Source: Nonlabens xylanidelens | GTDB lineage: Bacteria > Bacteroidota > Bacteroidia > Flavobacteriales > Flavobacteriaceae | Assembly: GCF_002934445.1 (NCBI RefSeq) | Contig: NZ_PTJE01000001.1 | Location: 124,001-188,000, forward strand | DNA length: 64,000 nt | Direction: 5' to 3' | Part shown: positions 2,387-58,902 of the stretch, piece after piece | Numbering within the stretch: the stretch's first letter is position 1 | Layout of the letters: every line of letters begins with the position of its first letter | The notes under the pieces: generated by a model | Told to the model about the DNA's origin: nothing | What the model saw: only the letters and a program-made list of their open reading frames with translations | The model's database searches: none | Translations under genes and position numbers: made by a program

Positions 2387-2418
2387 AAAAGTTCCGCTTT
2401 CGCGAAAGCGGAACTTTT
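2387..2418. repeat. Dispersed palindrome, copy 1 (perfect 32-bp palindrome)
   Basis: The core CGCTTTCGCGAAAGCG lies at 2395-2410 and the symmetry extends outward without a mismatch to 2387 and 2418. This is the most symmetric copy in the window. It begins 8 bp beyond the TonB-receptor stop codon, between that gene and the downstream ABC operon, and could form a strong hairpin in RNA. Confidence 0.95.
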
Positions 2419-2425
2419 CAATTTT

Positions 2426-5407
2426 CTAAAACAAATATCTAACACCAAATTGAAACTGTCTAGGTGGACCTGCGTTGCGCTGGACAAAACGGCCACTAGA
2501 AGCAGGACCTGCCTGAATTTGATTAGACTGTGTTGCGTTGTTACTATAACCACTCAAATTCTCTACGTTAAAAACATTAAAGACATCTGCTCTTAGTTCT
2601 AGTTTTTTATCGCCTTTAAGTTTAAACTGGTGTTGTACACCTAGATCAAAGTTAACGGACCATGGAAGACGGTCGTTATTACGAGCCTCTCCCGGAGAAC
2701 GATCACTATTACCCTGGTATGCATCTCCAAAACCACTACCGTCACCATTTAAATCTGTTGTTCCATATAACAAAGCATCTGGAATGCGGTTAATAGGCTG
2801 TCCACTTTGCAGGATGTTTGCAAGTGTTATGGTCGTTCCTTCTAGTGGATAATAATTAAAAATACTGTTTATGTTATGTCTTCTATCATTGATAGATGCT
2901 CCATATTCATCTCCATAGTTATTACCATCTTGTGCACGGAAGTTAATATCTTCTGTATCGTTTTTTAAACTAGCTAGTGTATAGTTAACACGGTAAGAAT
3001 AGTTGTCCTCTCCACGAGATTTCTGTAAATTAAAACTAGCAGCATAATAGCGAGATTTACCACCATTTTCTGTAATAACAACACTTCTAGCAACACCAGT
3101 TCTAGTCTGCCCGTCTATTACGGCACTGTTATTAGAAATAGGAATAGGTCGTGTAGCATCAGCCTCTGCTTGTGTTCTTACTACTACGTTATCAGGATCC
3201 ACCGTATACTCTGCAGCGGCATTTAAGTTTCTTAATCTTAAAAGATCTTCACCTCTATTATGAATAAGGTCTACAAAGAACAGTTTATCTTCTTCTACCT
3301 GTACTTGATATCCTATAGCAAACTGGTGTGAGTATGGATTATCATATCCATTAGGATTAAGTATACGTCTCTCATTTGAGAAAACACCTTCACGTTGATC
3401 TTGTAAAGATGCTGCAGTAGGTCCATTAAGGTAAGATACTCCTGCTACGTTTGCAGTAAGGTTACCATCAAAGGTTACTCTATCAATGTTAGTGTCTGAA
3501 GGAAGTATTCCTAAATCTACAAATTCCTGAATTTGCGCTTGATAATCTTCACTAGTTGTGTTTTGTTGTAAAGCATCACTATATACTGCATATGGTATTT
3601 TACCATAAGAAACAGCATATCCACCACGTAGACTACTTTTCTCTGTCAGTTTATAGTTTAAATTTAATCGAGGTGCAAAGTTGTTTTTATCACCTTCGTC
3701 ACTACCACCTTTAGAAAGGTTATCATAATCATAACGCAAACCTAGTGTCACGTTTAAACGATCTGAAACTGACCAAAGATCTTCTGCATAAACAGAATAA
3801 ATAGACTGGTCGGTACCGTATTGTGCTGGTCTTAATTCTACACCATAGTTAGTCACTTCTACGTCAGATGGTAGGTCGTTAATATTAAGAGCGCCACCTA
3901 GATTTCTTGCTCTTAATGCATCTAATTGAGCTTGAGTTAAATCTACCGTATAATTACCTGATGGATTACCACCACCTAATAATTCATGATCACCACGTAT
4001 GTAGTTTAATCCTGCTTTAAGAGAGTGGTTATCTAAGTAGTATTTAAATTTCTGTTGAAATTGCACTGTGTTTTCTAAAGCGTCAAAAATATAACCTGGG
4101 TTACCAATAATAGCTATGGTTTCATCTGCTGGATTTCTTACCGTTACTTGAGGACTACCAAAGTTATTTGCTTGAGAATAATTCCATCTAAAACGAGAGT
4201 ACTGAATGTTAGATTCGGCAAATACATCTCCTATATTATAACTGTTCTTTAAAGCGATGTTGATAGAGTTTCTTTCTTGCGTATCTCCTGCACTAGGAAA
4301 TAACGCACCGCCATCTAGTCCACCACCCTGACGTTCTATATCCACAAAACCTACATTTGCTCTCAATGAACTACGGAAACTATCTGACCATTTATGATCA
4401 ATTTTTGCAGATAGATAATTAAAGGTATTTGTTCCTTCAACAGTTTCTGCCACTCCTAATTGTGGAGACGTTAATAAATTATCTTTTACATCTGTAGTAT
4501 GTTCTATGTTCAAATAATAAAAGGTTTTATCTTTTACTAAAGCACCACCTACTCCTACACCTGCTTGATATCTAGCAAATCCATCTTTAACCTGATTACC
4601 AGATAAATCTCTTTGTGCAAACTGACTAGTACCATCTATACTAGGACCTGGTCGTGTGATAAAAAAGGCTTCTCCTGTTAATTTATTGGTACCTGACTTT
4701 GTAGTAACGTCTATAACACCATTTTCTGTTAGACCTTGCTCTGCACTATAATTATTAGTAAAAACAGTAATGTCATTTACAAAACCAGAAGGAATCGCAA
4801 ATCTCTGCCCTCCTAAAAATCGTTCATTATTATCCATACCATCAATAGTATATGATGTGAATAATGGGTTTGCTCCATTTACACTTACATTAGGCGCTTC
4901 TGGAAAGAAACCTGTTGCTTGTGTAACGTTAGGTAGACGGTATAGAACTCTAGTGATATCACGACCTTCTACAGGTATTTCTTGAATTTCGGCAGCTTCT
5001 AGTTCAAAGGAAACCTCAGCATCACGACGGTTAATACGGTTACTAGTCTGCGAGTTAATAACAACAGTATCTAATGTATTATCATCGTTTTTTGAGAGAA
5101 TACTTAATACAACAGATGGGTTCTCATTAGAACGTATGTTAATAACAGAACTTTCTGCAGATTCATACTGGTCGTTACCTTCAAATTTTACCACATAACC
5201 ATTGATGGTAGGTAAAGATTTAAAAGTTATTTTTCCTGAAGCATCAGTAGTTTGCTCCATTGAAATATTTCTAGAGCTATTAATTAAAGTAACCTTAATT
5301 TCAGGTAAACCTTGAAAAGTGGAGAAATCAGTTACGGTAACTGTTAGATCTTGAGAGAATGCGGTAATGCACATAAGTAGCATTACCCAAAAGGATAATT
5401 GTTTCAT
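2426..5407 (-). CDS. Oar-like TonB-dependent outer-membrane receptor
   Basis: Outer-membrane receptor, 993 aa, with a signal peptide (about residues 1-19, ending in AFSQ). A carboxypeptidase-regulatory-like beta-sandwich follows (about 20-110), then a plug with the segment PLFTSYTIDGMDNNERFLGG and a VIDVTTKSGTN plug end, then a large beta-barrel ending in phenylalanine (FGVRYLF), the usual outer-membrane signature. Barrel segments show the alternating pattern and aromatic girdles of TonB-dependent transporters. Absence of a SusD partner and the domain order point to the Oar-like rather than SusC class. The ATG was chosen because the signal peptide begins there. The ligand cannot be read from sequence. 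Its neighbours are an ABC importer downstream and a DUF2064 enzyme upstream. Confidence 0.9.
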   Translation of the reverse strand: MKQLSFWVMLLMCITAFSQDLTVTVTDFSTFQGLPEIKVTLINSSRNISMEQTTDASGKITFKSLPTINGYVVKFEGNDQYESAESSVINIRSNENPSVVLSILSKNDDNTLDTVVINSQTSNRINRRDAEVSFELEAAEIQEIPVEGRDITRVLYRLPNVTQATGFFPEAPNVSVNGANPLFTSYTIDGMDNNERFLGGQRFAIPSGFVNDITVFTNNYSAEQGLTENGVIDVTTKSGTNKLTGEAFFITRPGPSIDGTSQFAQRDLSGNQVKDGFARYQAGVGVGGALVKDKTFYYLNIEHTTDVKDNLLTSPQLGVAETVEGTNTFNYLSAKIDHKWSDSFRSSLRANVGFVDIERQGGGLDGGALFPSAGDTQERNSINIALKNSYNIGDVFAESNIQYSRFRWNYSQANNFGSPQVTVRNPADETIAIIGNPGYIFDALENTVQFQQKFKYYLDNHSLKAGLNYIRGDHELLGGGNPSGNYTVDLTQAQLDALRARNLGGALNINDLPSDVEVTNYGVELRPAQYGTDQSIYSVYAEDLWSVSDRLNVTLGLRYDYDNLSKGGSDEGDKNNFAPRLNLNYKLTEKSSLRGGYAVSYGKIPYAVYSDALQQNTTSEDYQAQIQEFVDLGILPSDTNIDRVTFDGNLTANVAGVSYLNGPTAASLQDQREGVFSNERRILNPNGYDNPYSHQFAIGYQVQVEEDKLFFVDLIHNRGEDLLRLRNLNAAAEYTVDPDNVVVRTQAEADATRPIPISNNSAVIDGQTRTGVARSVVITENGGKSRYYAASFNLQKSRGEDNYSYRVNYTLASLKNDTEDINFRAQDGNNYGDEYGASINDRRHNINSIFNYYPLEGTTITLANILQSGQPINRIPDALLYGTTDLNGDGSGFGDAYQGNSDRSPGEARNNDRLPWSVNFDLGVQHQFKLKGDKKLELRADVFNVFNVENLSGYSNNATQSNQIQAGPASSGRFVQRNAGPPRQFQFGVRYLF

Positions 5408-8038: not shown

Positions 8039-8640
8039 TTATTTAAAATCTTTATTTTGAACATTTGTCATTTGTAGAATAACAAAATTACCAGGTCGTA
8101 TCTGAATATTCTTATCCGTTACTATGGCATTTATTGCGGTTCCGCTTTCGCGAAAGCGTGCATTATTTAAACCCACATTAAGTATCAAAGAATTCTCATT
8201 AAAAAACACCTTTGTACTCTCGTTAAAGTAATGACGTTCTATGTTCAACAAACCATTCATGGTAACCACAAGATATAGAGCAGCTCCAGAAGAAAACTCT
8301 AGTTTCCTAGCATTTTCAACGGCCTTGTCTAGCTGCTCATATCTATATCTTAATAATTACAAGCTACCTGTTGGTCTTTGGTAGTCATGTAGAATGAAAT
8401 ACAATAAGTTTCTGTATCTCAATAGGCAAAACACATATTTCTCTCCTACAAATCCATTGAAACCTATGTTAGAAAAGACAATCTTTACCTGAACATGTCT
8501 GATTCAACTGGAAGATCTTAAAGCGTACTCCTTAATTTGAGATCATCGTCTACAGTAACGTCTGCCATGGCTAAAAATTTGCGCCATGAATCTTCCTGCA
8601 ATTTAAGCAAACTTTCATAACTAGCTCTGTTGCTTTCTGT
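8039..8640 (-). pseudogene. Remnant of a GH65 maltose phosphorylase
   Basis: No intact ORF spans this stretch, but successive minus-strand frames reproduce GH65 segments in the right order. Around 8530-8640 reads QEDSWRKFLAMADVTV (family pattern HxxxWxxxWxxxDIxI). Around 8440-8480 reads IGFNGFVGEKY. Around 8360-8420, in another frame, reads FYMTTKDQQVACN. Around 8300-8358 reads LLRYRYEQLDKAVENARKL, leading to a TMNG segment. After TMNG, where the family should carry its catalytic glutamate, the sequence jumps to a short C-terminal-like beta segment. That tail is a 76-codon ORF beginning at a GTG (8269). At least two stops or frameshifts and internal deletions are visible. It precedes the GH13 gene, as in intact maltose operons. 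The GH65 call for the middle part is firm; the tail is less certain. Confidence 0.75.
8143..8158. repeat. Dispersed palindrome, copy 2 (inside the GH65 remnant)
   Basis: Exact core CGCTTTCGCGAAAGCG with TTCC on the left arm. On the minus strand it is read in frame as ARFRESG within the tail ORF of the GH65 remnant. Confidence 0.93.
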
Positions 8641-8925
8641 AAAACCTTAAATACTCAATCTCAATAAATTCATATAACCTAAAGTGATTACAACCTTTTA
8701 AATCTCTTTACACATTTGATAAAGAAACTTTTAAGCCCTAATATATTTATTTTTAATATACTCTATTGCGTCATTATAACTTATTTCAGGAGTTATTATT
8801 TGTTTCGCTTTCGCAAAAGTGAAGTTGCGATAAAAATCAATAACGATTAACGAAAACGTTTAATTTATATAATTTAGCCGTCGTGTGAGAAGAAGACATC
8901 ATTAATTTTTAACTAAATCAGAAAA
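8641..8925. promoter_or_regulatory. Divergent regulatory spacer upstream of susC-like gene
   Basis: The spacer separates the decayed minus-strand operon from the plus-strand susC-like gene. At 8854-8861 is AAACGTTT within a TTAACGAAAACGTTTAA context, a CG-centred palindrome of the kind bound by LacI-family repressors, which commonly control maltose loci; no lacI gene is in the window. Just downstream, TAATTTAG (8869-8876) is a near match to the -7 element TAnnTTTG, about 50 bp before the ATG. Both calls are tentative. Confidence 0.4.
8806..8821. repeat. Dispersed palindrome, copy 3 (degenerate)
   Basis: Reads CGCTTTCGCAAAAGTG, two mismatches from the core CGCTTTCGCGAAAGCG. The mismatches break the hairpin, so it looks like a decaying copy. 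It sits about 105 bp upstream of the susC-like start codon. Confidence 0.7.
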
Positions 8926-13314: not shown

Positions 13315-13330
13315 CGCTTTCGCGAAAGCG
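13315..13330. repeat. Dispersed palindrome, copy 4
   Basis: Exact core CGCTTTCGCGAAAGCG with left flank GTTC and right flank AATC. It lies 32 bp beyond the stop codon of the minus-strand oxidoreductase and before its terminator. Confidence 0.95.
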
Positions 13331-18800: not shown

Positions 18801-20230
18801 TCTTCTTTATGTATGTAATACGTATTATTAGTCGCTACTATTTTTACATCGTGTTTACGAGCAAAGCTGACTAACACCTCATTTGCGCGATTTTCATCTT
18901 CTTGACCATGGCGCATTACCTCAACATAAAGATCGTCACCAAAGTGCTTTTTCCACCACAATAGTGCTTCTTCGGCCTGATTTTCTCCTAAGTTCAAAAT
19001 CTTAGAAGGCACCTCACCATACATGTTTCCTGTAAGAACAATTAGGTCTTCCTTATATTCTTCTACCAGTTTTTTATCTATACGCGGCATGTAGTAAAAC
19101 CCATCTGTGTAGGCTTTACTTGCCATTTTTGCTAGATTGTGATATCCATTCTTGTTTTTGGCTAGAATTACTATCTGGTATCCATTATCCTTGTGTGTAC
19201 GATCGTACATATCTTCACACACCTGGAACTCACAACCTATTATAGGTTTTATAGGTTCTTTTTCTTCTCCTTCTTCCGCATCTGCTAGACTCGCATTATG
19301 TGCTTTTACCGCACGTACAAAATGGAATGCTCCCATCATGTTTGCATGGTCTGTCATGGTAACGGCATTCATATTATTTGCCGCAGCAGCTGTAACTAGA
19401 TCTTTTACACTAGCTGTACATTGTAATATAGAAAACTGACTATGACTGTGTAAATGTGCAAAACTCGCATCTCTTAATTCATTTAAGTTCTCTTTAATTT
19501 CTGCCTTAGATATCTCTGGACTATCGTTGGACTTTAATCTTTCTGATGCTTTTTTAAGATTGACATGCTTTATTCCTACCGGTGCGATGGTTGTAGGGTT
19601 GCTTTCGCGAAAGCGTAAAAAATATCCATCTTCAAAACCTAGTTGTTCTAGCGAGTACTGCTCTTTTCTAAGTAATTCTAAGAAACAACGCGTGGTTGCC
19701 TCCACATCTGCAGTCGCGTTGTGCGCTTCTCCAAAGGGCTGATTAAACAGAAACTGGTGCAGCTCTGTAAGTGTCGGTAATTTAAATTTACCATATCGCC
19801 CACCGGGAATCTGACATAAATTTGCCGTGTGCTCTGTACAGGTATCTAGAACAGGTAACTCTTGTAAATCGTTACCTATTTGAGTGCGCTCAAATTCTGC
19901 TCCAGTAACATTAAGGTCAAATTTTAAATTCTGACCTACAATAAATTTTGTTTTACTAAGTGCTATGTTAAATTTCTCTAACATCTCCACTAGAGGAATA
20001 CCGTCTTTTTGAGCAAGTGCTGTAGAGATACCATGTATACGCTCTGCATCATAAGGGATGTCAAAACCGTCTGGTTGTATCAAATAATCTTGAGCCTCTA
20101 TAAGGTTACCCATCTCGTCATGTAACTGCCACGCTATCTGTATAACCCTAGGCCAGTTATCTACATCTGTAAAAGGTGCATCCCAGCGTTTAGGTAATCC
20201 AGTAGTTTCTGTGTCAAAAATTAAGTACAT
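15881..20230 (-). CDS. dnaE: DNA polymerase III alpha subunit with fused N-terminal 3'-5' exonuclease
   Basis: 1449-aa replicative polymerase. Residues 1-190 are a DEDDh proofreading exonuclease: FDTETTG (Asp6, Glu8), GQNLKFDLN near 100, and HNATADVEA near 170. A linker of about 60 residues follows, then the PHP domain starting HLHSHSQFS near 256. The C-family polymerase core has PDIDIDF near 676 and GPGRGSAAGS before it, then the beta-binding and OB-fold region. In E. coli exonuclease and polymerase are separate subunits (DnaQ, DnaE); the fusion is a lineage feature of flavobacteria as far as I know. The dispersed palindrome is inserted in frame in the linker (residues about 205-210, RFRES), which should be tolerated. 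Single-gene unit. Confidence 0.96.
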   Translation of the reverse strand: MYLIFDTETTGLPKRWDAPFTDVDNWPRVIQIAWQLHDEMGNLIEAQDYLIQPDGFDIPYDAERIHGISTALAQKDGIPLVEMLEKFNIALSKTKFIVGQNLKFDLNVTGAEFERTQIGNDLQELPVLDTCTEHTANLCQIPGGRYGKFKLPTLTELHQFLFNQPFGEAHNATADVEATTRCFLELLRKEQYSLEQLGFEDGYFLRFRESNPTTIAPVGIKHVNLKKASERLKSNDSPEISKAEIKENLNELRDASFAHLHSHSQFSILQCTASVKDLVTAAAANNMNAVTMTDHANMMGAFHFVRAVKAHNASLADAEEGEEKEPIKPIIGCEFQVCEDMYDRTHKDNGYQIVILAKNKNGYHNLAKMASKAYTDGFYYMPRIDKKLVEEYKEDLIVLTGNMYGEVPSKILNLGENQAEEALLWWKKHFGDDLYVEVMRHGQEDENRANEVLVSFARKHDVKIVATNNTYYIHKEDANAHDILLCVKDNEKQATPIGRGRGYRYGLPNQEYYYKSAPEMKELFKDLPEAILNVQEVVDKVEAYELARDVLLPAFDIPTEFVDENDAVNNTKNGENSYLRHLTYEGAKIRYGEITPEIEERLEFELETIKKTGYPGYFLITWDFIKAARDMDVAVGPGRGSAAGSVVAYCLWITNVDPIHYDLLFERFLNPDRVSMPDIDIDFDDENRYKVMDYVIEKYGASQVAQIITYGTMAAKSSIRDTARALDLPLQDADRVAKLIPDFAKLKKMFALEDNEIAGKFRGDDADMVRELRSLAEGNDLIAETIQKARILEGCVRNTGVHACGVIITPDDLTNFVPVATAKNSDLYVTQFDNEVVESAGLLKMDFLGLKTLSQIKDTVAIIKERHGIELDIESIPLDDEKTYELFQRGETTAIFQYESLGMQKYMRELKPTQFADLIAMNALYRPGPLEYIPEFIDRKHGRKEIVYDLDAMEEYLKETYGITVYQEQVMLLSQKLANFSKGDADVLRKAMGKKQMATLQKMKPKFLDAGEGNGHDRTVLEKVWKDWEAFASYAFNKSHSTCYAWIAYQTAYLKANYGAEFMAATLSNNMNQIKDVTKFMDECRRMGLDVLGPDVNESNYKFTVNPKGAIRFGMGAVKGLGHGAVMTIIENRKDGHYKSIFDMAKRIDLRAANKKSFEALALSGGFDGLGGENRAQFFHEFDNGQIFLEQVVKYAQKFQENENSAQVSLFGEASDVQIPEPQLPVCEDWGTMEKLKREREVVGIYISGHPLDDYKREMKFFCNANLAAMKDLTPLVNRELTFCGVISEARHMMSKANKPWGIFTMEDYDESFEFRMFGEDYLKFRHFLVPNSFLHAKVKIQQGWIDKNTGKPRDPRILFVQMAQLQDVMAQAAKKLTIEFHVSEILEERIALLKDALDKHQGDHRLLFNLKDHEEKISIDMSARLQKVNVSAELLQLLDDNDITYGVN
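19600..19615. repeat. Dispersed palindrome, copy 5 (inside dnaE)
   Basis: Reads TGCTTTCGCGAAAGCG, one outer mismatch from the core. On the minus strand it encodes FLRFRESNP in the linker between the exonuclease and PHP domains of DnaE. Confidence 0.9.
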
Positions 20231-20637
20231 AAGCGCGCGTTCTAAAAGATGAAATTACTTCTATAAAAGGAATTGAAAAATATTTACATAAATCTGATTA
20301 TCAATAGCATGAAATCTGTAATCTAATTATTTTTCGGATTTTAAATATAGGTCTTTGAGTTGCTTTTTGAAAGTAGAGTTATGAACAATCTTAGTTAAAA
20401 TTACAGCTCTTGTAAAGACTATAGACAATTGAAAAACAAAATATTTCTTACTTATCCCGACACAATTGTCACAATCTTGCAATAACATGTGATATAAATG
20501 AAATGAAATCGAGAGGCAATCGTGAATTAAAAAATCGCTATTTGTTGTGTTCAAAAACAGTAAGCTTTTAGAGAATTAAAAACTCTTACTGTTTCACATA
20601 ACAACTCGAACTTAAATTTCAATTTTAAAATTTTATC
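20231..20637. other. Intergenic region between dnaE and an outer-membrane protein gene
   Basis: No gene is seen; a 75-codon minus-strand ORF here has no recognisable features. Perfect 10-bp inverted repeats AAACAGTAAG (20555-20564) and CTTACTGTTT (20585-20594) lie 43 bp upstream of the plus-strand gene at 20638. They may form a leader hairpin, or a minus-strand terminator because TTTTTGAA follows in that direction. Nothing else is supported. Confidence 0.45.
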
Positions 20638-21555
20638 ATGAAAACAAATTTTTTATTTTCACTATTACTATCAGTAGTATTTACATCTACTGTATTTTCT
20701 CAAGGACTAGTAGATGGTTTTTTTAATCCTAAAGGCGATTTATCTGTTACGGCTAGTTATACACGCAGCACCTTTGACGCATTTTATATAGGAAAAGATA
20801 AAGTAGACCCTATACCTGCTCACAATGAAATAGATCAAGACATATATAATCTCTATGCAAAATATTCCATCACAGACAACTTTACTGTTATCGCAAACGC
20901 ACCTTATATAAGTGCTCAAGGAAATGGCGCTGCAGACCCAGTAAATGGGACTACAGAGCAATCTGACTTTCAAGATATAAGTTTATATGGTAAATACAGA
21001 GCCTTCAGTACAAAACTAGGTAAAGCAAGATTAGACGGTCTAGGTGCTGTAGGTGTTACACTACCTGGCGGTTATGAGCCTAATGGAATACTATCTCTAG
21101 GTTCTGGAGCGGTAACGACTAACTTACATCTAGGTGCTCACTTACAAGCAGACTCTGGTTTATTTGCTACTGCAGTTGCAGGATACAGTCTACGTGGTGA
21201 TGCAGATGATAATCTAGGTGTTAATGGTGGTAACGATCTAGATGTACCAGATGCTTTATTATTCATGGGTAAAATAGGATATTCTAACGCACTTTTTTAT
21301 GTAGAAGCATGGATGGATTACCAGTCTTCTTCTGACGGTAGAGATATTTCTGACGCAGATTTTGGTGGTAGATTTCCAGAGACAGAAGTAGATTACACAC
21401 GTATAGGTGTTACTGCTTATGTACCTGTACTTCCATCATTAGGATTAAGTGCTGGATATGGAACACTAGTCGACGGACGCAATGTAGGAGATTCTAATTA
21501 TTTTAATCTAGGAGTGACCTATTCGCTTTCAGTCGGTTCTAAGAAAGCAAAATAA
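20638..21555 (+). CDS. Outer-membrane beta-barrel protein of unknown function
   Basis: 305 aa. The signal peptide is about residues 1-21 (ending TVFSQ). The mature protein is built of alternating-polarity strands such as LSVTASYTRSTFDAFYIG, TVIANAPYIS, YGKYRAFST and LGLSAGYGTLV, ending LGVTYSLSVG. This resembles barrel proteins of the putative outer-membrane transporter group (MetA-pathway type), but I cannot name a substrate. It is monocistronic: a hairpin lies upstream and a strong bidirectional terminator downstream. The ATG is the only start preceding a full signal sequence. Confidence 0.75.
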   Translation: MKTNFLFSLLLSVVFTSTVFSQGLVDGFFNPKGDLSVTASYTRSTFDAFYIGKDKVDPIPAHNEIDQDIYNLYAKYSITDNFTVIANAPYISAQGNGAADPVNGTTEQSDFQDISLYGKYRAFSTKLGKARLDGLGAVGVTLPGGYEPNGILSLGSGAVTTNLHLGAHLQADSGLFATAVAGYSLRGDADDNLGVNGGNDLDVPDALLFMGKIGYSNALFYVEAWMDYQSSSDGRDISDADFGGRFPETEVDYTRIGVTAYVPVLPSLGLSAGYGTLVDGRNVGDSNYFNLGVTYSLSVGSKKAK

Positions 21556-21630
21556 TTAGTTAGTTCTATTTTATAGAAGAGAACTCTTACATGAAAATCG
21601 CTTCTATAAACTCTAAAAAATAGGACATAA

Positions 21631-21660
21631 AAAAGCTCGATCTTAAAAGATCGAGCTTTT
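21631..21660. terminator. Bidirectional intrinsic terminator
   Basis: AAAAGCTCGATCTT (21631-21644) is the exact reverse complement of 21647-21660. A runs on one side and T runs on the other allow termination in both directions, between the convergent outer-membrane protein gene and the PA2169-type gene. Confidence 0.92.
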
Positions 21661-21680
21661 ACTATTTTACACCTTTTCTA

Positions 21681-22127
21681 TTAGGCTATTTCTTCCATTG
21701 CATTTACTCTAGTTAATGCATTTTGAATAGTATCTCTATGCTTTATCAACACGTTTTTTGTTGATGGCGGCAAGGTAGTTTCTGCAATAATCTCATTGTA
21801 TTCTTCTACTGCGCTTTTTTCACCTCTTACGGCCTCTTCTAGAATTGCTTCTTCTTTATCTGAAGTAAAAGTAGACTTTATGTTCATCCAGGTGCGATGC
21901 GCATCTCCTTTTAAACTTGTCCCTTTTTCTGGACTCTCTCCATAACTTTTAATCTCTTCTTTTAATTCATGTCCAAAATTATAACGCTCTTCTTGTTGTT
22001 TTGAGAAAAAATCTTTTAATCTACTGCTATTCACTTGCTCTGTTGCTAGTTTATATCCAGCCTCTGCATCATAGTTTTTAGTTAGTAAATCATTTAATTT
22101 TTGGGACACTTCTTTTGTGTAGTTCAT
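21681..22127 (-). CDS. PA2169-family four-helix-bundle protein (DUF2383)
   Basis: 148 aa, almost entirely helical. It follows the family layout: an N-terminal helix EVSQKLNDLLTKNYDAEAGYKLA, a second helix with FFSKQQEERYNFGHELKEEI, GTSLKGDAHRTWMNIKS in the middle, and ILEEAVRGEKSAVEEYNEII in the third helix. The spaced Glu and His residues recall ferritin-like bundles, and the family is annotated as ferritin-like, but metal binding is not proven. It is probably a cytoplasmic, stress-related protein (inference). The gene stands alone with a shared terminator downstream. Confidence 0.85.
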   Translation of the reverse strand: MNYTKEVSQKLNDLLTKNYDAEAGYKLATEQVNSSRLKDFFSKQQEERYNFGHELKEEIKSYGESPEKGTSLKGDAHRTWMNIKSTFTSDKEEAILEEAVRGEKSAVEEYNEIIAETTLPPSTKNVLIKHRDTIQNALTRVNAMEEIA

Positions 22128-22323
22128 AATATTTGTTTGTATGGTTAATAATTAATTATACCACAAACATATAACAATGAACCAGTTACAAACGACCGAT
22201 TAAGACAGGTTTAAAAAAAGCTTAGTAGAGATTTAAGATTAGCTTACTTTATCCCGCTTTTATGTTAAGAGATTTAAGGTTTTTATGTCTTTCAAAACAA
22301 CTTCTTAAAGTAGTTTATCATTC

Positions 22324-22339
22324 CGCTTTCGCGAAAGCG
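22324..22339. repeat. Dispersed palindrome, copy 6
   Basis: Exact core CGCTTTCGCGAAAGCG with left flank ATTC and right flank AAAC. It lies just beyond the nrdA terminator, between nrdA and the PA2169-type gene. Confidence 0.95.
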
Positions 22340-22353
22340 AAACTATAGAACAT

Positions 22354-22380
22354 AAAAAAGCCCAATCACAGGATTGGGCT
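22354..22380 (-). terminator. Intrinsic terminator of nrdBA
   Basis: AGCCCAATC (22359-22367), loop ACAG and GATTGGGCT (22372-22380) make a 9-bp stem. In the minus direction a run of T follows. Confidence 0.92.
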
Positions 22381-22412
22381 TTGATACGTTTTAGTAATAA
22401 ATGTAATAAAAA

Positions 22413-25019: not shown

Positions 25020-25167
25020 ATTGAACTGTTTTATTTGGGTTAAGAGATAAGGATTCTACTCCCTTTCTCTTGTAATTGGGTTAACATAAGTGAAAATATC
25101 TTGACATATTTTCGGTAATTTATAATGGAACAACTGTTGCAGTTGTAAGGTCTAAATAAGCTTTGCT

Positions 25168-34993: not shown

Positions 34994-35010
34994 ATAGCAT
35001 AAAGATTAAT

Positions 35011-36616: not shown

Positions 36617-36622
36617 AATCTT

Positions 36623-37228: not shown

Positions 37229-37244
37229 CCAAAGAATACTAAAG

Positions 37245-37955: not shown

Positions 37956-37983
37956 AATGAAAAGATAAGGCCGTAAAGTTAAA

Positions 37984-38019
37984 GCAAAAAAATAGCCGCT
38001 CTAAAAAAGAACGGCTATT
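37984..38019 (-). terminator. Intrinsic terminator of the exbB-exbD operon
   Basis: On the minus strand AATAGCCGTTCT and AGAGCGGCTATT pair (one mismatch) around a T-rich loop, followed by a run of seven T and GC. It lies just past the last exbD stop codon (38044). Confidence 0.85.
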
Positions 38020-38043
38020 AATATTAAATTAAAGAACTTATTA

Positions 38044-38529
38044 TTAATTCTTTAAGTTTTTTAAAGGATCACCTTCTACTGAAGTGTAACTAATTTTAAG
38101 AGCATATGCATCTCTTAATTCTTGTTTAACATCAGTTAGAATACCAACCTGTGAATTCTGATCTACTTTTAAAGAAACAGTCATCGCATCCTTATCATCT
38201 TCGTCCATAAGATTTCTCTTAGTATTAACGAAGGTTTGAACATCACTGACTGGGGCAATCTTATCTCCTAATTGAACAACTTCAGTAAGACCATAAGTCT
38301 TTTGGAAGTTAGGACTAGGTTTACCTATGTAAATAGTAACTACCTTCTTCTTTTCCGCTAGCTTTTCAACTTGATTAGCTTGTGGTAATTTGTTTTCAAT
38401 TTGTAGTTCATCATCTCTCATTACAGTCGCAACCATAAAGAAGAATAATAACATGAAAACAATATCTGGAAGAGATGCTGTAGAAACAGCTGGCAATTCA
38501 CCACTCTTTTTTTTCTTAAACTTAGACAT
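38044..38529 (-). CDS. exbD: ExbD/TolR family biopolymer transport protein (second copy)
   Basis: 161 aa. A short cytoplasmic tail (KFKKKKSGELPAVSTASLPD) precedes one membrane helix (IVFMLLFFFMVATVM) with the aspartate at its cytosolic edge (LPDIVFMLLFF), the proton-conducting residue of ExbD/TolR. A periplasmic domain of about 110 residues follows. It starts 2 bp after the first exbD stop, so the pair is translationally close. Together with ExbB it would energise a TonB-like protein. No tonB gene is in the window. Confidence 0.9.
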   Translation of the reverse strand: MSKFKKKKSGELPAVSTASLPDIVFMLLFFFMVATVMRDDELQIENKLPQANQVEKLAEKKKVVTIYIGKPSPNFQKTYGLTEVVQLGDKIAPVSDVQTFVNTKRNLMDEDDKDAMTVSLKVDQNSQVGILTDVKQELRDAYALKISYTSVEGDPLKNLKN

Positions 38530-38531
38530 AA

Positions 38532-39161
38532 TTATTCTCTGTTTTGAGGTTCAGCTTCAGAAAGGTTTCTAGGAAACAATTCTCTCACTTTATCAATTTT
38601 ACCCTTTAGCTCTTCATATTCTGGAGACTCAACTTCTGTTGCAGGCCAATCCGACAATCTTTTTGTCATAGAACCATAAGTCTCATTATAAAGACGCTGC
38701 CCTTCTCTATCTCTAAGAGTAGCATAAGCTCTTACCAGCTCATTAGTCACCGCTAGATACATCTTATAAGACGCTTGTCTATCATTAACTAAAGAAATAA
38801 TTGCTTTCTTAGGATTATCAGAAGATTCTGGATCCTTAGCACCTCTACAGTACGTACAAGCATTTCTAGCATCTGTTCCTCCACCGTTATCTAAAAACTT
38901 AACAGCAGCTGCAGTCAAATCCTTGATATCCATGTCAGCATCTTCTACAAGTAGACGATTCTCAGCGTTCACAATTACTTGGAAAATATTCTTCTCCTTA
39001 ATTAATGGCGGCTGAACCTCATCAGGAAGAGGTGGTGGCAATTTACTTGCGATACCACTATCCACTTCAATCGTGGTAGTAACCAGGAAGAAGATCAATA
39101 GTAGGAATGCGATGTCTGCCATCGATCCCGCGTTTACTTCTGGTGCAGATCTTCTAGCCAT
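38532..39161 (-). CDS. exbD: ExbD/TolR family protein (first copy, with a Cys pair)
   Basis: 209 aa, longer than typical ExbD. N-terminal RRSAPEVNAGSMADIAFLLLIFFLV contains the single transmembrane helix with the essential aspartate (SMADIAFLLL, about residue 16). The periplasmic domain contains an extra segment with NACTYCRGAKD (a CxxC pair near residue 95), absent from the neighbouring copy and from standard ExbD. In the periplasm this pair could form a disulfide or bind metal. It forms a heteromeric motor with the ExbB upstream and the second ExbD downstream. Confidence 0.9.
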   Translation of the reverse strand: MARRSAPEVNAGSMADIAFLLLIFFLVTTTIEVDSGIASKLPPPLPDEVQPPLIKEKNIFQVIVNAENRLLVEDADMDIKDLTAAAVKFLDNGGGTDARNACTYCRGAKDPESSDNPKKAIISLVNDRQASYKMYLAVTNELVRAYATLRDREGQRLYNETYGSMTKRLSDWPATEVESPEYEELKGKIDKVRELFPRNLSEAEPQNRE

Positions 39162-39164
39162 AAT

Positions 39165-39638
39165 TTATTTTTTTATAAGTTTACTTACTCCTGCCCATAC
39201 TATTGTTCCAACAGCAACTACTCCTAATATGTAGAACATATATAAAGAAGCACCTATCCATTTAGAAGTTCCAGCAGTTAACAGCTCTCCATCTTCTAAC
39301 TCAATAACCTTGCCAGACGCATCTAAAACGCTATCATCTGCAAGAACGAAATAAGACACCAATGCAACAACTGCAAGAAGTCCAACAGAAATCAAAGATT
39401 TCTTTAAAACCTCAGCACTAGAGAAAAGTCCTTTGAAAACAAAGATTATCACTATAACAGCGATAAGAGCTAACGAAATATAAGCCAAATAGATTAATGG
39501 CGATACGGTAACAGCCTGGCTGCCTTCCGTATTTAGTTCAATTGCTTCATCACCTAAAGCTAGCGTATAGAAAAAGAATCCCATCGCTATAAGGCTCAAA
39601 AGAAGAACTAGGTATTTTAATACTTTATGTAAAACCAT
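39165..39638 (-). CDS. Four-helix membrane protein between exbB and exbD
   Basis: 157 aa, about four transmembrane helices: LVLLLSLIAMGFFFYTLAL, PLIYLAYISLALIAVIVIIFVF, SLISVGLLAVVALVSYFVL and ASLYMFYILGVVAVGTIVWAGV. I do not recognise a named family. A polar, probably extracytoplasmic loop (DDSVLDASGKVIELEDGELLT) lies between helices 3 and 4. It is placed 22 bp after exbB and 3 bp before exbD, so it is in the same operon and may be an accessory subunit of this motor (inference). Confidence 0.7.
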   Translation of the reverse strand: MVLHKVLKYLVLLLSLIAMGFFFYTLALGDEAIELNTEGSQAVTVSPLIYLAYISLALIAVIVIIFVFKGLFSSAEVLKKSLISVGLLAVVALVSYFVLADDSVLDASGKVIELEDGELLTAGTSKWIGASLYMFYILGVVAVGTIVWAGVSKLIKK

Positions 39639-39660
39639 GATTTGTTTTTGTAATGGTTAA

Positions 39661-40404
39661 TTACTTACCGTTCTTATAGTCTACAAGAATATCGATAAGA
39701 GTAATAGAAGCGTCTTCCATATCGTTTACAATACTATCGATTTTAGAAACGATATAATTATAAAAGATTTGAAGGATAATCGCTACGATAAGACCAAATA
39801 CTGTTGTAAGAAGTGCTACTTTAATACCACCAGCTACAAGAGAAGGCTCCATAGTACCTGCTTCTTCAATACTGTTAAATGATCCAATCATACCTATTAC
39901 CGTACCCATGAAACCTAACATAGGTGCAAGAGCGATAAATAAAGATACCCAAGATACATTCTTTTCTAATTGACCCATTTGAACACCACCATAAGCTACG
40001 ACAGCTTTTTCAGCAGCTTCAATGCTCTCATCTGCTCTATCAAGTCCTTGATAGTAGATAGATGCTACAGGTCCTTTTGTGTTACGACACACATCTTTAG
40101 CAGCTTCTATACCACCACTTTTTAGAGCTTGCTCTACATCAGCAGCAAGTTTCTTAGAATTTGTTGTAGAAAGATTTAAATAAATAATTCTTTCTATAGC
40201 AACTGCAAGTCCTAATATAAGACATACTAATACGATGGCCATGAATCCAGGTCCTCCATCAATAAAGTTTTTCTTTAAAACTTGGTGGAAAGACTCTGTC
40301 TTAATTACCTCTGGAGCTTCTTGAATTAATGCAGATGCTGAAGCAACACCAGTAACACCTAATGTCATGGCTGCCGTGAATAAAATTGAAAGTGATCGTT
40401 TCAT
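39661..40404 (-). CDS. exbB: MotA/TolQ/ExbB proton channel family protein
   Basis: 247 aa from ATG 40404 (MKRSLSILFTAAMTLG), chosen over an upstream ATG because it yields a proper N-terminal hydrophobic segment. Three further helices follow: GFMAIVLVCLILGLAVAIERII near 65-90, and a pair around 150-215 (LFIALAPMLGFMGTVIGMIGSF and VALLTTVFGLIVAIILQIF). The GFMGTVIGMI and LLTTVFGL segments are hallmarks of the ExbB/TolQ/MotA channel. With two ExbD proteins it would use the proton gradient to drive TonB-dependent or Tol-like envelope work. Confidence 0.92.
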   Translation of the reverse strand: MKRSLSILFTAAMTLGVTGVASASALIQEAPEVIKTESFHQVLKKNFIDGGPGFMAIVLVCLILGLAVAIERIIYLNLSTTNSKKLAADVEQALKSGGIEAAKDVCRNTKGPVASIYYQGLDRADESIEAAEKAVVAYGGVQMGQLEKNVSWVSLFIALAPMLGFMGTVIGMIGSFNSIEEAGTMEPSLVAGGIKVALLTTVFGLIVAIILQIFYNYIVSKIDSIVNDMEDASITLIDILVDYKNGK

Positions 40405-40679: not shown

Positions 40680-40680
40680 G

Positions 40681-40762
40681 TACCTCAGGCCGGAATCGAA
40701 CCGGCACGCCGTGAAGCATTGGATTTTGAATCCAACGTGTCTACCAATTCCACCACTGAGGC
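40681..40762 (-). tRNA. tRNA-Leu (anticodon CAA)
   Basis: On the minus strand the sequence folds as a class II tRNA: acceptor arm GCCTCAG / CTGAGGT (with a terminal G-T pair), D arm with GGTAGACACG, anticodon stem TTGGA / TCCAA around loop TTCAAAA (anticodon CAA, Leu UUG), a long variable arm TGCTTCACGGCGT typical of tRNA-Leu, and T arm GCCGGTTCGATTCCGGC. The 3' CCA is not encoded. Length is 82 nt. A T-run terminator follows directly. Confidence 0.95.
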
Positions 40763-43220: not shown

Positions 43221-43236
43221 CGCTTTCGCGAAAGCG
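43221..43236. repeat. Dispersed palindrome, copy 10
   Basis: Exact core with left flank ATCT and right flank AAAC, 32 bp after the pth stop codon and about 100 bp before ribF. Confidence 0.95.
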
Positions 43237-45830: not shown

Positions 45831-45846
45831 ATCTTTCGCGAAAGCG
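45831..45846. repeat. Dispersed palindrome, copy 11 (degenerate left arm)
   Basis: Reads ATCTTTCGCGAAAGCG, two mismatches at the outer left arm; the right arm continues AAAC as in other copies. Confidence 0.8.
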
Positions 45847-47281: not shown

Positions 47282-49072
47282 ATGCGTTACCTTTTTGTAG
47301 TTTTTACGGCACTTTTTTGCACCTTTAGTTTTGCTCAAGATTCTAAACTTGCTGAAAATTACATGGATCAAGGTGAGTACAATAAGGCATTAAAAATCTA
47401 TCAAAAAATATACGATAAAAATAAGCGCAATCCCAGAGCGGTGTTTGCGCTTATTGAAGTATATCAACAGTTAGAACGTTATTCTAGTGTAGATTCTATT
47501 ATCGATATTGCACAAAAAAGCACCCCTCGCAAAGAGCAATTTTACATAGAACGTGGTTATAATGCAACGCTACAAGGCAAAGACAGTATCGCAACTAACT
47601 ATTACCAAAAAGCGATTCATGTTATAGATTCCTTACCACAACTTACCTATCAAATAGCCTATAGATTTGAAAAGCGTAATGAGCTAGAAGAAGCTATACT
47701 GTCCTATGAAAAAGGAATGGCTCTCAACGATAAACTCAACTACAATTATCAACTAGCTAAATTATATGGTGAACAAGGTGATCTAGAAAAGATGTTCGAC
47801 ACTAACGTGACCTTAATAGAACAAAATGCTGTTTACCGCTCTCGAGCACAAGCTATATTTGCTCAATATGTTACCGATAATCCAGATAATGAAGGCAACA
47901 AATTATTAAGAAAGGTGCTTTTATTGCGCTTGCGTGAAAATCCAGATCCTATTTATAATCAATTGCTCTCTTGGTTATTTGTGCAACAAAAGGATTTTAA
48001 AAAAGCATTTATACAAGAAAAAGCGATCTATAAACGTGAGGAATCTAATATGGACAACCTTAGAGATCTTGTAATAACTGCTATAGATGAAAATGATCTA
48101 GAAGCTGCAAAGGACATTCTTGATTACATGATTGAAGAAACGCAATCTTTAAGTACTAAATACATCGCGCAAAGTTTAAAAATTAAATTGCGTGCAAACG
48201 CAGCTACTGCTCAAGAGTTTGAATCTATTAAATTAGATTATGAAAATCTACTTACTACTTATGGTAGGGACAAAGAAACTTTTAGACTACAACTGGACTA
48301 TGCAGATTTTCTAGCTTTTAAAACTAACGAACCTCAAACGGCTAGCGATTTATTGATAGCTCTAGAAAAAACTAATTTAAGTAAATTTCAAAAAGCAGAT
48401 GTAAAAATACTTCTTGCCGACATACTCGTTCTACAGGAGCAATTTAACAGAGCACTTATATTTTACAGTCAGGTACAAAACGACTTACCTAACGACCTGC
48501 GTGCTCAAGAATCTCAATTTAAAGTAGCACGTACCAGCTATTATCAGGGTGACTTTCCCTGGAGTCTGACTCAATTAAAAGTATTGCGCAGCGCTGCCAG
48601 TAAGTTAATCGCAAATGATGCCATGGAGTTAAGCCTGACTATTGCAGACCACTCTGTAGAAGACACGACGTTTGTTGCGTTAAAAGCTTTCGCGAAAGCG
48701 GAATTAAAACAATACCAGAATAAAAGATCTGAGGCCATAACTCTTTACGATCAATTACTGTTAGATCACAAAGGAGACCCTATCGAAGATGAAGCTTTAT
48801 TAAAACAAGCACAGCTTTATGAAATAGATGGCAAATTTGAAAAAGCTAGAGATAATTACCAGCTTATTATTGATAATTACAGCGATGGTATTCTTGCAGA
48901 TGACGCTATTTACAGACTAGGCCTATTGTATCAAGAACACCTAGAAAACCCATTAAAAGCCAAGGAGCTTTTTGAAAAAATAATATTTTCACACGCAGAC
49001 AGTATTCACTTTGTAGATGCTCGCAGGCGCTATCGCAGGTTGCGTGGTGATGAAAACGACAAAGCTTTTTAA
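47282..49072 (+). CDS. TPR-repeat exported protein
   Basis: 596 aa with a signal peptide (about 1-18, ending FSFAQ), so it is periplasmic or outer-membrane associated. Tetratricopeptide-like helical repeats run nearly the whole length, for example YMDQGEYNKALKIYQKIY near 30, YQKAIHVIDSLPQLTYQIAY near 110, FNRALIFYSQVQNDLP near 390, and FEKARDNYQLIIDNYSDGILADDAIYRLG at the C-terminus. It likely scaffolds protein complexes. A dispersed palindrome copy is embedded in frame at residues 468-473 as AFAKA, inside a helix just before a repeat. It ends 19 bp before the DUF4286 gene. Confidence 0.85.
   Translation: MRYLFVVFTALFCTFSFAQDSKLAENYMDQGEYNKALKIYQKIYDKNKRNPRAVFALIEVYQQLERYSSVDSIIDIAQKSTPRKEQFYIERGYNATLQGKDSIATNYYQKAIHVIDSLPQLTYQIAYRFEKRNELEEAILSYEKGMALNDKLNYNYQLAKLYGEQGDLEKMFDTNVTLIEQNAVYRSRAQAIFAQYVTDNPDNEGNKLLRKVLLLRLRENPDPIYNQLLSWLFVQQKDFKKAFIQEKAIYKREESNMDNLRDLVITAIDENDLEAAKDILDYMIEETQSLSTKYIAQSLKIKLRANAATAQEFESIKLDYENLLTTYGRDKETFRLQLDYADFLAFKTNEPQTASDLLIALEKTNLSKFQKADVKILLADILVLQEQFNRALIFYSQVQNDLPNDLRAQESQFKVARTSYYQGDFPWSLTQLKVLRSAASKLIANDAMELSLTIADHSVEDTTFVALKAFAKAELKQYQNKRSEAITLYDQLLLDHKGDPIEDEALLKQAQLYEIDGKFEKARDNYQLIIDNYSDGILADDAIYRLGLLYQEHLENPLKAKELFEKIIFSHADSIHFVDARRRYRRLRGDENDKAF
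48685..48700. repeat. Dispersed palindrome, copy 12 (inside the TPR gene)
   Basis: Reads AGCTTTCGCGAAAGCG, one outer mismatch; the right arm continues GAAT. Read in frame as LKAFAKAEL, an alpha-helix-compatible sequence in the TPR protein. Confidence 0.92.
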
Positions 49073-51740: not shown

Positions 51741-51756
51741 CGCTTTCGCGAAAGCG
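51741..51756. repeat. Dispersed palindrome, copy 13
   Basis: Exact core with left flank ATTC and right flank AGAT, 17 bp after the mgtE stop codon. Confidence 0.95.
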
Positions 51757-54684: not shown

Positions 54685-54685
54685 A

Positions 54686-57598: not shown

Positions 57599-57615
57599 AG
57601 ATAATTGTAAACCGA

Positions 57616-58902
57616 CTATTCCTTAACGATCAACTGAAGTGTTTCTTGTGCACGTTGCTTCAATAAAACTTTTTTATCTGACTCTATCATTTCTACAGAA
57701 TCTCCATCATAATGTCTTACTGTATAGAGTGATACATCTTCTACATAACTCACTTTATAACGCGATTCTAGATCGTTAACTAGCTCATTAATTTTATGAT
57801 ATTTATCTTCTACACAAATTGAAAAACTAATTGCACTGTTTTGCAACAGCCCTACTTGCATTTTATGAACGCTTAGTTCTTGAAAAATATCAGATATATT
57901 ATTCTCTCCTATAAAACTAAAATCCCTAGAAGAAATCTTGAGAAAAACCATTTCTTTTCTCACGATATAACAAGGTATCAAAGGCTCTATAGTCTCTACA
58001 GACGTAATGACCGTACCCTCTTTTGTAGGATTAATAAAAGATTTTACATAAAGAGGTATCTTCTTACCTTGTAATGGTTGTAATGTTTTAGGATGTATCA
58101 CAGACGCACCGTAAAATGCTAATTCTATCGCCTCGTTATAAGGCATTTTATTAAGTAAAACGGTGTTTTTAAAAACTCTAGGATCTGCATTGAGAACACC
58201 AGGAACATCTTTCCATATAGTCACGTTTTTTGCATTAAGACAGTAGGCAAGAATAGCTGCAGTGTAATCACTACCTTCTCTACCTAGTGTTGTGGTAAAA
58301 CCATTATCATCAGACCCTATAAAACCTTGTGTAATGAACAATTGTCCCTGACAGGATTGAGATATGAGTTTTCCGCTTTTTTTCCAGTCCACACCAGCAT
58401 CACGATATTTATGATCTGTTTTTATCAATTGCCTGGCGTCTTTCCACACCGTAGGAATACCACAAGCATTCATAAAAGCCGAAACGATTCTTGTAGAAAG
58501 CAACTCTCCATGACACACGACTTGATCATATAAGAAACTATAATTTTTACTCTGATTGCGTAGCATTTCACCTTTGAGAGACTCTATTATTGCTTTTATG
58601 TCTTTTTTAATTCCGCTTTCGCGAAAGCGAGACAACCATAAATCTTCCATACCAGGTACTGGCACCTCTAGATCTTCAATAATTTTTAAATGTTGGTCAT
58701 ACAAATCGTCAATAAGCGAGAGATAACTGGCATCATTCTCTTGATAGGTAGCGATAATAACTTCTAGAGCATTAGTAGTTTTTCCCATTGCAGAAACCAC
58801 TATACCTAAATCTTCTATACCTGTAGTTTGCAATACATTTAAAACGTTGCGCACTGCTGAGGCATCTTTTACTGACGCACCACCAAATTTAAATATCCTC
58901 AT
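57616..58902 (-). CDS. lysC: Aspartate kinase
   Basis: 428-aa monofunctional aspartokinase, the first enzyme of lysine, threonine and methionine synthesis. Motifs are FKFGGASVKDASAVRNV (residues 3-19), TTLGREGSDYTAAILAYCL near 203-220, and VWKDVPGV-like IWKDVPGVLNADPRV near 230. The C-terminal region about 300-428 contains ACT-type regulatory strands (FLKISSRDFSFIGENNISDIFQ). The dispersed palindrome lies in frame at residues 92-97 (SRFRESG). Its start codon directly follows the stop of the upstream GNAT gene with no gap, so they are one operon. Confidence 0.93.
   Translation of the reverse strand: MRIFKFGGASVKDASAVRNVLNVLQTTGIEDLGIVVSAMGKTTNALEVIIATYQENDASYLSLIDDLYDQHLKIIEDLEVPVPGMEDLWLSRFRESGIKKDIKAIIESLKGEMLRNQSKNYSFLYDQVVCHGELLSTRIVSAFMNACGIPTVWKDARQLIKTDHKYRDAGVDWKKSGKLISQSCQGQLFITQGFIGSDDNGFTTTLGREGSDYTAAILAYCLNAKNVTIWKDVPGVLNADPRVFKNTVLLNKMPYNEAIELAFYGASVIHPKTLQPLQGKKIPLYVKSFINPTKEGTVITSVETIEPLIPCYIVRKEMVFLKISSRDFSFIGENNISDIFQELSVHKMQVGLLQNSAISFSICVEDKYHKINELVNDLESRYKVSYVEDVSLYTVRHYDGDSVEMIESDKKVLLKQRAQETLQLIVKE
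58614..58629. repeat. Dispersed palindrome, copy 14 (inside lysC)
   Basis: Exact core with left flank ATTC and right flank AGAC. On the minus strand it is read in frame as LSRFRESGI in the aspartate kinase. Confidence 0.95.

Follow-up and report, generated by a model that had tools for sequence, protein, structure and literature searches.

Background

The sites of Noc and SlmA and the matS sites are dispersed palindromes of 12–16 bp, HIP1 (highly iterated palindrome 1; GCGATCGC) is very abundant in rich cyanobacteria, and Chi is a strand-polar signal of 5–8 nt. A further member of the broad kind of high-copy recognition motifs that are kept across a genome is described here: a 16-bp palindrome found in a 64-kb stretch (the window) of the genome of Nonlabens xylanidelens (contig NZ_PTJE01000001.1, positions 124,001 to 188,000), which is unusual in its perfect symmetry, its length, and the near-exclusion spacing of its copies. 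Most likely it serves as a mark of self-DNA, read by the cells or by a chromosome protein; tentatively, we favour a self-DNA recognition sequence like the uptake sequences of Neisseria and Haemophilus, which would be kept by biased uptake and recombination.

The uptake sequences of Neisseria (DNA uptake sequences, DUS) and Haemophilus (uptake signal sequences, USS) occur at one per 1–1.5 kb according to passages of PMC2397512 and PMC7811141, which attribute distributions of this kind to molecular drive through biased uptake. A passage of the former gives a DUS-1/DUS ratio of 0.25–0.43 for six Neisseria genomes and places 34–42% of the neisserial DUS in genes, and a passage of the latter places 23% of the USS10 of one Haemophilus strain within 100 bp of another. 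Like DUS and USS, the palindrome is present in hundreds of near-perfect copies that are relatively evenly distributed, lie in spacers and are tolerated in genes, carry AT-rich informative flanks, and are conserved at orthologous places. Unlike them, it is a perfect 16-bp palindrome of lower density in a host of the Bacteroidota, with no pilus ATPase above the cut-off in seven of the nine searched genomes that are rich in it; since the pilus-based uptake machinery that goes with DUS and USS was thus not found in most of these, the palindrome is not filed as a member of that class and is said only to work like one.

Copy number in the window and in the genome

The initial annotation had reported 14 copies in the window, all of which proved correctly placed against 0.04 expected by chance: ten are exact, two have one mismatch, and two have two mismatches. 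They are given here without strand.

2395–2410, exact; spacer between the open reading frames (ORFs) 1136–2356 (−) and 2426–5407 (−)
8143–8158, exact; spacer
8806–8821, degenerate, two mismatches; spacer, 663 bp from the copy at 8143
13315–13330, exact; spacer
19600–19615, one mismatch, outer pair; inside dnaE (DNA polymerase III alpha), in-frame RFRES
22324–22339, exact; spacer directly downstream of the nrdA stop (nrdA 22413–25019, −)
27240–27255, exact; spacer
30205–30220, exact; inside a DUF5686 ORF (28758–30947, +)
33432–33447, exact; spacer directly after the stop of an MMPL gene (31030–33420, +)
43221–43236, exact; spacer
45831–45846, degenerate, two mismatches at the outer left edge; spacer
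48685–48700, one mismatch, outer pair; inside a tetratricopeptide-repeat (TPR) protein ORF (47282–49072, +)
51741–51756, exact; spacer
58614–58629, exact; inside an amino-acid kinase (AA-kinase) ORF (57616–58902, −)

Ten of these copies lie in spacers and four in ORFs, where nine spacer copies had been counted before. The exact 16-mer occurs 579 times in the source genome (G000; 3,276,842 bases) and the reversed, uncomplemented control pattern not once, which bears out the expectation of hundreds of copies beyond chance and extends the excess well outside the window. A sample of 464 kb (14% of the genome), comprising the window and 400 kb of the same contig with a 4-kb gap between them, contains 88 exact, 25 one-mismatch, seven two-mismatch and two three-mismatch sites, i.e. 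one site per 3.9 kb up to two mismatches; the Markov background of the sample contains no site below four mismatches, and at four or more the counts are little above background. The one-mismatch/exact ratio is 0.28 in this sample (25/88) and 0.39 in four pooled Nonlabens data sets (274 exact, 106 one-mismatch), both within the neisserial range.

Spacing along the chromosome

The sites (up to two mismatches) are evenly spaced. The 118 gaps in the source-genome sample average 3.9 kb with a coefficient of variation (CV) of 0.44, against 0.99 ± 0.09 for uniform placement, and two of them are under 1 kb where 27 were expected. With the numbers of coding and spacer sites kept (class-preserving null) the CV was 1.03 ± 0.09, and none of 5000 replicates was as even; among 128 8-mers with 100–140 copies in the same DNA, the core TTCGCGAA had a CV of 0.449 and the next lowest 0.838. 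Genome G010 gave a CV of 0.49 with none of 84 gaps under 1 kb, and the rich genome G227 a CV of 0.52 on 26 gaps.

Genome G015 was sampled in 20 stretches of 20 kb at about 163-kb steps round its single contig, between which a site-free gap under about 140 kb could escape. Each stretch contained three to nine sites up to two mismatches (mean 6.2, variance 2.38, index of dispersion 0.38), and five of the 103 gaps within stretches were under 1 kb; the stretch at 2928001 had no exact copy, five sites with one mismatch and one with two. One of 364 gaps is under 500 bp, so that close pairs are nearly absent, unlike those of the Haemophilus USS10. The spacing exclusion is strong, and is not absolute.

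In a toy model, sites were gained only where a fragment was without another site; with fragments of 3–5 kb, the model gave mean gaps of 3.1–5.9 kb, CVs of 0.36–0.44, and 0–5% of gaps under 1 kb. As far as such a model goes, a one-site-per-fragment explanation would suffice for the observed spacing, which does not make it correct.

Structure of the site and its flanks

The initial annotation had taken the centre of the palindrome for its most invariant part. The invariance is not confined to the centre but covers the inner 14-mer GCTTTCGCGAAAGC (105 exact copies in the source-genome sample), since 78 of the 106 one-mismatch sites in the four Nonlabens data sets differ at the outermost pair only. 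Beyond the core there is a composition bias without any constant sequence. In 403 pooled sites whose flanks were read 5' to 3' towards the core, T is enriched at distances 2, 3, 6, 9, 11 and 12, purines are enriched at distances 4–5 and 14–17, and C is scarce to about 18; the bias is symmetric, i.e. a T/G-rich, C-poor approach on both sides to about 16–18 bp beyond the core, and is alike for coding and spacer sites, and hence is not a gene-end effect. At distances 2–15 from the inner 14-mer, complementary positions match at no higher a rate than after shuffling, so there is no selection for pairing between the arms, and the symmetry of 22–32 bp described earlier holds as an average symmetry of composition and not as co-variation. 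Selection seems, from these alignments, to act on each half separately, which is what the binding of duplex DNA by a protein dimer would lead one to expect.

A recombination or repair signal of the Chi kind, read by a DNA-end-processing recombinase and raising exchange nearby, would go with the even spacing, with a DNA-level, strand-neutral site, and with a copy density comparable to that of Chi in E. coli. Such a role is improbable for a long, non-polar, 16-bp palindrome with a wide flank, unlike the short and strand-polar Chi.

The half-sites are informative for another alternative, an iterated palindrome of the HIP1 kind that would be tied to a DNA methyltransferase or a mutational bias and not to a reader of the full site. 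Like the palindrome, HIP1 is highly repeated, lineage-restricted, dispersed, and present in genes and spacers. Half-sites alone are mildly above Markov expectation (CGCTTTC, 35 vs 25 in G000 and 58 vs 34 in G010), and the tetramer TTCG, contained in the core, is depleted elsewhere: in Nonlabens DNA other than the palindrome, TTCG/CGAA reaches 0.37–0.50 of Markov expectation (for G000, in each codon phase and in spacers alike), both of which would suit a short-word bias. However, such a bias should leave far more half-sites than full sites, and GCTTTCG outside sites occurs only eight times on both strands of the source-genome sample, against the 105 exact inner 14-mers; the TTCG depletion is also weaker in the rich genomes G227 (0.73) and G211 (0.88; other genera, 0.92). 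The palindrome is twice as long as HIP1 and far rarer, has near-exclusion spacing and no known methylase link, and is missing from two cultured Nonlabens phages (see below). A HIP1-kind origin is, if anything, a little less probable than a Chi-like one. By a term search, the main text of the HIP1 paper PMC4390886 contains neither 'Flavobacteri' nor 'Bacteroidetes'.

An avoidance of half-sites had been suspected from the raw counts and was rejected, as half-sites are at or mildly above Markov expectation; the low raw counts are due to the TTCG depletion. The words TCCG and TTGG are likewise low in Nonlabens. A few spaced half-site pairs (split palindromes) are present in G000 and in G010, and no common insert was seen among them. 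At L167:11427, a palindrome is split at its centre by a nearly palindromic insert of 21 nt (CTGCC/GGCAG type), which may be another dispersed repeat.

Placement relative to genes

By a crude ORF caller, ORFs cover 90% of the source-genome sample and yet hold only 40 of the 88 exact copies (neisserial DUS, 34–42% in genes), and hence spacers are enriched; the coding copies prefer the frame that reads AFAKA (26/40). With one spacer copy without a right-hand neighbour left out, 56 of 57 spacer copies were classed by gene orientation as 31 tandem, 15 divergent and 10 convergent, in line with spacer-length shares of 0.53, 0.28 and 0.19.

The nearness of copies to stop codons, which the initial annotation had stressed, is reproduced in the 31 tandem spacers (22 copies nearer the upstream stop than the downstream start, eight farther, one tie), and is the one point in favour of a transcription terminator or mRNA-stability hairpin. 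This reading is contradicted by the many copies inside ORFs, by the full share of divergent spacers, by the sequence after the stem, which is A-rich and not T-rich on either strand, and by the lack of a co-varying stem. Within 20,001–40,000 of the window, none of the four palindrome copies was called as a terminator; separate terminator-like hairpins were called instead (12 vs 10.2 in shuffles, i.e. no overall excess), one of them at 22357–22382 beside the copy at 22324. With no T-run, no gene orientation and no co-varying stem, the terminator was rejected and is the least probable of the readings considered, to the point of being barely credible.

Conservation and origin of the sites

Between G000 and G010, 49 of 120 and 48 of 85 query sites (up to two mismatches) aligned across, the rest being without a match or not spanned. 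Of 36 exact G000 sites that aligned to G010 (mean identity 77%), 24 were exact there, six had one mismatch, three had 4–6, and three had more; in the opposite direction, 25 of 31 were exact. All 19 relatives examined, out of 22 in the genus, retain the site at 30205, 15 of them exactly and four with one mismatch. At the 27240 locus, 20 genomes including G000 were compared: three have the copy at this place, 15 have one projected at about 1–2 kb away, none has both and two have neither; many of these projections were extrapolated by up to 1 kb and one by 3.5 kb, and the shuffle values for this pattern ignore shared ancestry and are descriptive only.

The dnaE gene is instructive for the origin of sites. 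The site at codon 213, which is the window copy at 19600, is present in six of the seven Nonlabens compared (five with one mismatch, one with two; no full 16/16 match), whereas G003, G227 and G211 have a site instead at an aligned position near codon 461, and G227 has a further, exact site at codon 342. These sites arise by different codons, with no indel around the three site positions compared. It follows that the species differ by substitution and not by insertion; as judged from these alignments, site positions change in this way at a similar, kept density.

A selfish mobile palindromic unit, comparable to repetitive extragenic palindromic (REP) elements, bacterial interspersed mosaic elements (BIME) or miniature inverted-repeat transposable elements (MITE) and spread evenly by target immunity, would have the high copy number and the even spacing in its favour; REP/BIME and MITE are likewise dispersed, palindromic and enriched in spacers. 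Length differences are also seen: two G010 orthologues have 43–44 extra bases between the half-sites (G000 sample positions 27946 and 216229, concatenated coordinates), 14 of the 36 G000–G010 alignments are gapped at 10 bases or less from the site, and one relative carries the 21-nt central insert mentioned above. The dnaE sites, in contrast, replace existing codons without change of length and at different positions in different lineages, so that the coding sites compared, unlike REP and MITE, show no insertion signature; intact copies far outnumber slightly decayed ones in place of a decaying series, and the constant sequence expected around a mobile unit is missing beyond the core. The mobile unit, a role proposed in the initial annotation, was therefore rejected for coding sites and is overall very improbable, scarcely more credible than the terminator.

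Even spacing, origin by substitution, symmetric flanks without co-variation, and neutrality to gene orientation together indicate that the palindrome is probably a target for a protein at the level of DNA, and not a mobile unit or a terminator. The remaining role named in the initial annotation, a nucleoid-protein or DNA-processing site, comes close to both explanations that lead here.

Distribution, transferred-looking islands and phages

All 23 genomes searched in the genus Nonlabens contain 180–737 exact copies each. Among named genomes, a protein of the window has its best matches in Nonlabens dokdonensis, N. ulvanivorans, N. antarcticus, uncultured Nonlabens (one at 96% identity) and a strain labelled Flavobacteria bacterium BBFL7. 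In a sample of 397 genomes of the family (Flavobacteriaceae), 48 have any exact copy, four of them Nonlabens; outside the genus only G227 (630 copies) and G211 (153) are rich, and the 42 others have 1–13. The inner 14-mer, up to one mismatch, occurs 1017 times in G227 and 536 times in G211. In a tree of DnaE from 30 genomes (nrdA was dropped as a marker, as some genomes have no close homologue), G227 and G211 are sisters (100/99) next to Nonlabens, and the branch that parts Nonlabens, G227 and G211 from the other sampled genera has 84/59 support; one origin of the palindrome in these three is possible on this tree. A search for other palindromic dialects gave no 12-mer in nine other genera (pooled, 36–238 kb), with a filter that merges similar contexts and undercounts.

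In poor genomes with several copies, the copies are often clustered. Among the matches listed, G097 has 16 inner-14-mer copies within 78 kb of one contig (CV 0.76), the 19 copies of G307 and the 17 of G072 lie on three contigs each, and spacings of 933, 2446 and 3460 bp are shared between genera. Clustering is not universal, the two copies of G294 being about 1.1 Mb apart. In 20 stretches round copies in poor genomes the sites lie in ORFs, except for one exact copy in L067; six ORFs scanned match AcrB-family efflux pumps, an outer-membrane efflux partner, metal P-type ATPases and a TonB receptor. The clusters have the look of islands acquired from the rich clade. The palindrome may serve to trace transferred DNA in other genera back to the clade that it came from.

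Two cultured Nonlabens phages (P12024S and P12024L; 35 kb each) have no site up to three mismatches, where 18 would be expected at host density. In IMG/VR, 41 stretches from 30 contigs contain the exact 16-mer, 11 contigs having at least two in the part examined; two of the four richest contigs are genuine phages (portal, terminase or capsid matches), one of them Mu-like, and seven other contigs have a GC content over 0.5 and may carry the 16-mer by chance. The Mu-like phage, a single 37-kb contig (L210, L227, L230), has six exact palindromes, one of them in the portal ORF and one in the terminase ORF.

A 59-kb stretch of G001, chosen for its gap, has three exact sites (six up to two mismatches) against about 12–13 exact expected at the genome average. 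This site-poor stretch (C4, 296001–355000; L325–L327) contains a type II/IV secretion ATPase, and a pair of very large ORFs (about 1800 and 1550 aa) is present there in duplicate in DNA with a GC content of up to 0.52.

Candidate uptake and reader proteins

As described in parts of PMC8459023 and PMC7965970, which place Riemerella in the Flavobacteriaceae, this genus transforms without pilus homologues: it needs ComEC, DprA, a DUF5689 protein and an adjacent outer-membrane protein, and in R. anatipestifer, which gave no pilus homologue, the adjacent DUF5689/outer-membrane pair is required (PMC8459023); for R. columbina an unexplained preference for self-DNA was measured, with only A/T-rich k-mers offered as candidates (PMC7965970). 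ComEC was found in all 20 and DUF5689 in all 30 of the genomes searched for them. In G000 and G010, the gene for a DUF5689 lipoprotein (L039:2221–3681 and L174:3274–4689) adjoins a gene for a large protein, in the G010 version of which a carboxypeptidase-regulatory domain was found. By domain and position, the Nonlabens DUF5689 gene and its neighbour are likely counterparts of two of the outer-envelope transformation genes of Riemerella. A sequence search of the PDB with the DUF5689 lipoprotein gave one weak match, to another protein.

A pilus-based reader was rejected, as the pilus/type II ATPase (PF00437) is above the cut-off in two of 20 genomes. ParB or a Noc-type protein was rejected likewise: each of the nine rich genomes searched has one canonical ParB, and no Noc-type paralogue is common to them, the only extra ParB-domain protein among them being in G006 (others are in the poor genomes G122 and G222). 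The helix-turn-helix region of ParB is not distinctive, as Nonlabens differ at two residues and the rich G227 and G211 match poor genomes. A parS consensus, with up to three mismatches, matched at one of 20 parB loci (G099, not rich). No reader protein of the palindrome was found among these candidates.

Self-DNA recognition or chromosome organisation

Many exact copies and few near-misses, even spacing, tolerance in genes, origin by substitution and AT-rich flanks lead to the uptake-sequence-like reading. The picture for dependence on residence is mixed: the two cultured phages lack the site and the G001 stretch, chosen for its sparseness, has few, but some other phage contigs and a transferred-looking island carry it at host-like density. 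By analogy with Neisseria and Haemophilus, a symmetric and probably dimeric reader would bind the double-stranded 16-mer together with about 16 biased bases on each side, and fragments bearing a site would be favoured over the rest for uptake, or for processing towards recombination. Recombination of such fragments would replace site-less or mutated alleles, and sites would thereby be spread and repaired by biased transfer; new sites would be created by substitution at places where the local protein or spacer tolerates them, as seen in dnaE. If one site per fragment is enough, a second one nearby would gain nothing, and the even spacing that is observed would result, as it does in the toy model. 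A type IV pilus would not be needed for uptake in this group, given that Riemerella transforms without one. This remains our tentative first choice.

The main alternative, somewhat less likely, is a chromosome-organising site, by analogy with matS/MatP or Noc/SlmA and here genome-wide: an abundant, clade-specific, dimeric nucleoid protein would bind palindromes every 3–5 kb and bridge, bend or tether the chromosome. The sites of Noc, SlmA and matS are likewise dispersed palindromes read by dimeric DNA-binding proteins, as is predicted here. The perfect dyad symmetry of the core and the symmetric flank bias to about 16–18 bp beyond it are in favour of such a site, as are the evenness of spacing and the scarcity of gaps below 1 kb in the sampled contig and round G015, the retention at orthologous places, and the alternate positions at 27240 (15 and three of 20 genomes, never both; shared ancestry uncorrected). 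Noc sites, in contrast, number about 70 (a passage of PMC4331003) against the 579 exact copies here, and no site-free gap was seen round G015: none of its 20 stretches was without sites, and a gap wider than about 160 kb is unlikely (the terminus was not located), unlike for Noc and SlmA sites. Furthermore, unlike for Noc, a Noc-like ParB paralogue common to the rich genomes is missing, the canonical ParB is not distinctive, and the extra ParB-domain protein of G006 has counterparts in poor genomes. Host-like density on some phage contigs and in a transferred-looking island is not predicted for an architectural site.

Several points weigh against the preferred self-DNA recognition sequence as well. 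An architectural site predicts even spacing equally well, and any rule that rewards one site per few kb would give the same outcome in the toy model; a nucleoid protein, moreover, accounts more readily for the dyad symmetry and comes close in likelihood. In G227 and G211 the evenness is weaker or unproven, the rich G211 having a CV of 0.76 on only 13 gaps. Known uptake sequences are, to our knowledge, not perfect palindromes, unlike this core, and the density of one per 3.9 kb is well below that in Neisseria and Haemophilus. On the side of the machinery, pilus/type II ATPase is above the cut-off in only two of 20 genomes and is lacking by this measure in seven of the nine rich ones searched, and the uptake genes (ComEC, the DUF5689 pair) are family-wide, whereas the motif is not. 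The DUF5689 lipoprotein, the obvious surface candidate, is 33–37% identical between G000 and G010, its neighbour protein 83–84%; it appears to diverge, by fast evolution or replacement, unlike what a reader of an invariant word would do, and its structure prediction is unusable (mean predicted local distance difference test score, 31). The homology of the Nonlabens and Riemerella pairs is likewise argued from domain and position and not from direct comparison. Among open-licence papers, none was found that joins 'naturally transformable' and Nonlabens.

The same literature (open-licence papers) gave none with the 16-, 14- or 12-mer, and occurrences of the 10-mer TTTCGCGAAA were judged unrelated; none joins 'highly iterated palindrome' and 'Flavobacteri', the papers with 'Nonlabens' and 'palindrom' are unrelated by their titles and the starts of their abstracts, and no flavobacterial uptake sequence was evident beyond Riemerella. 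On the strength of these searches, and with slightly less confidence than in the preferred reading as such, the palindrome could be the first self-DNA recognition sequence in the Bacteroidota, i.e. a palindromic one-per-fragment tag of a pilus-free uptake or DNA-processing system; jointly with this, at least three genera would have kept one invariant word of 14–16 bp whose positions come and go. Both leading readings would be novel. An uptake tag would be a self-recognition sequence outside the proteobacteria, palindromic, and tied to the little-understood pilus-free uptake of Riemerella; an architectural site would amount to a kind of 4-kb ruler, with protein sites at regular intervals over a whole chromosome. 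Either way, the motif is a ready bait for finding its protein.

Other features of the window

The class I NrdA encoded at 22413–25019 has only weak matches in eight of 30 genomes searched (G006, G007, G015, G227, G097, G307, G033 and G105), from which a replacement of ribonucleotide reductase, also within the genus, is possible. The sole Rfam match of the window at gathering score is a tRNA-Leu (CAA) gene at 40680–40762 (−).

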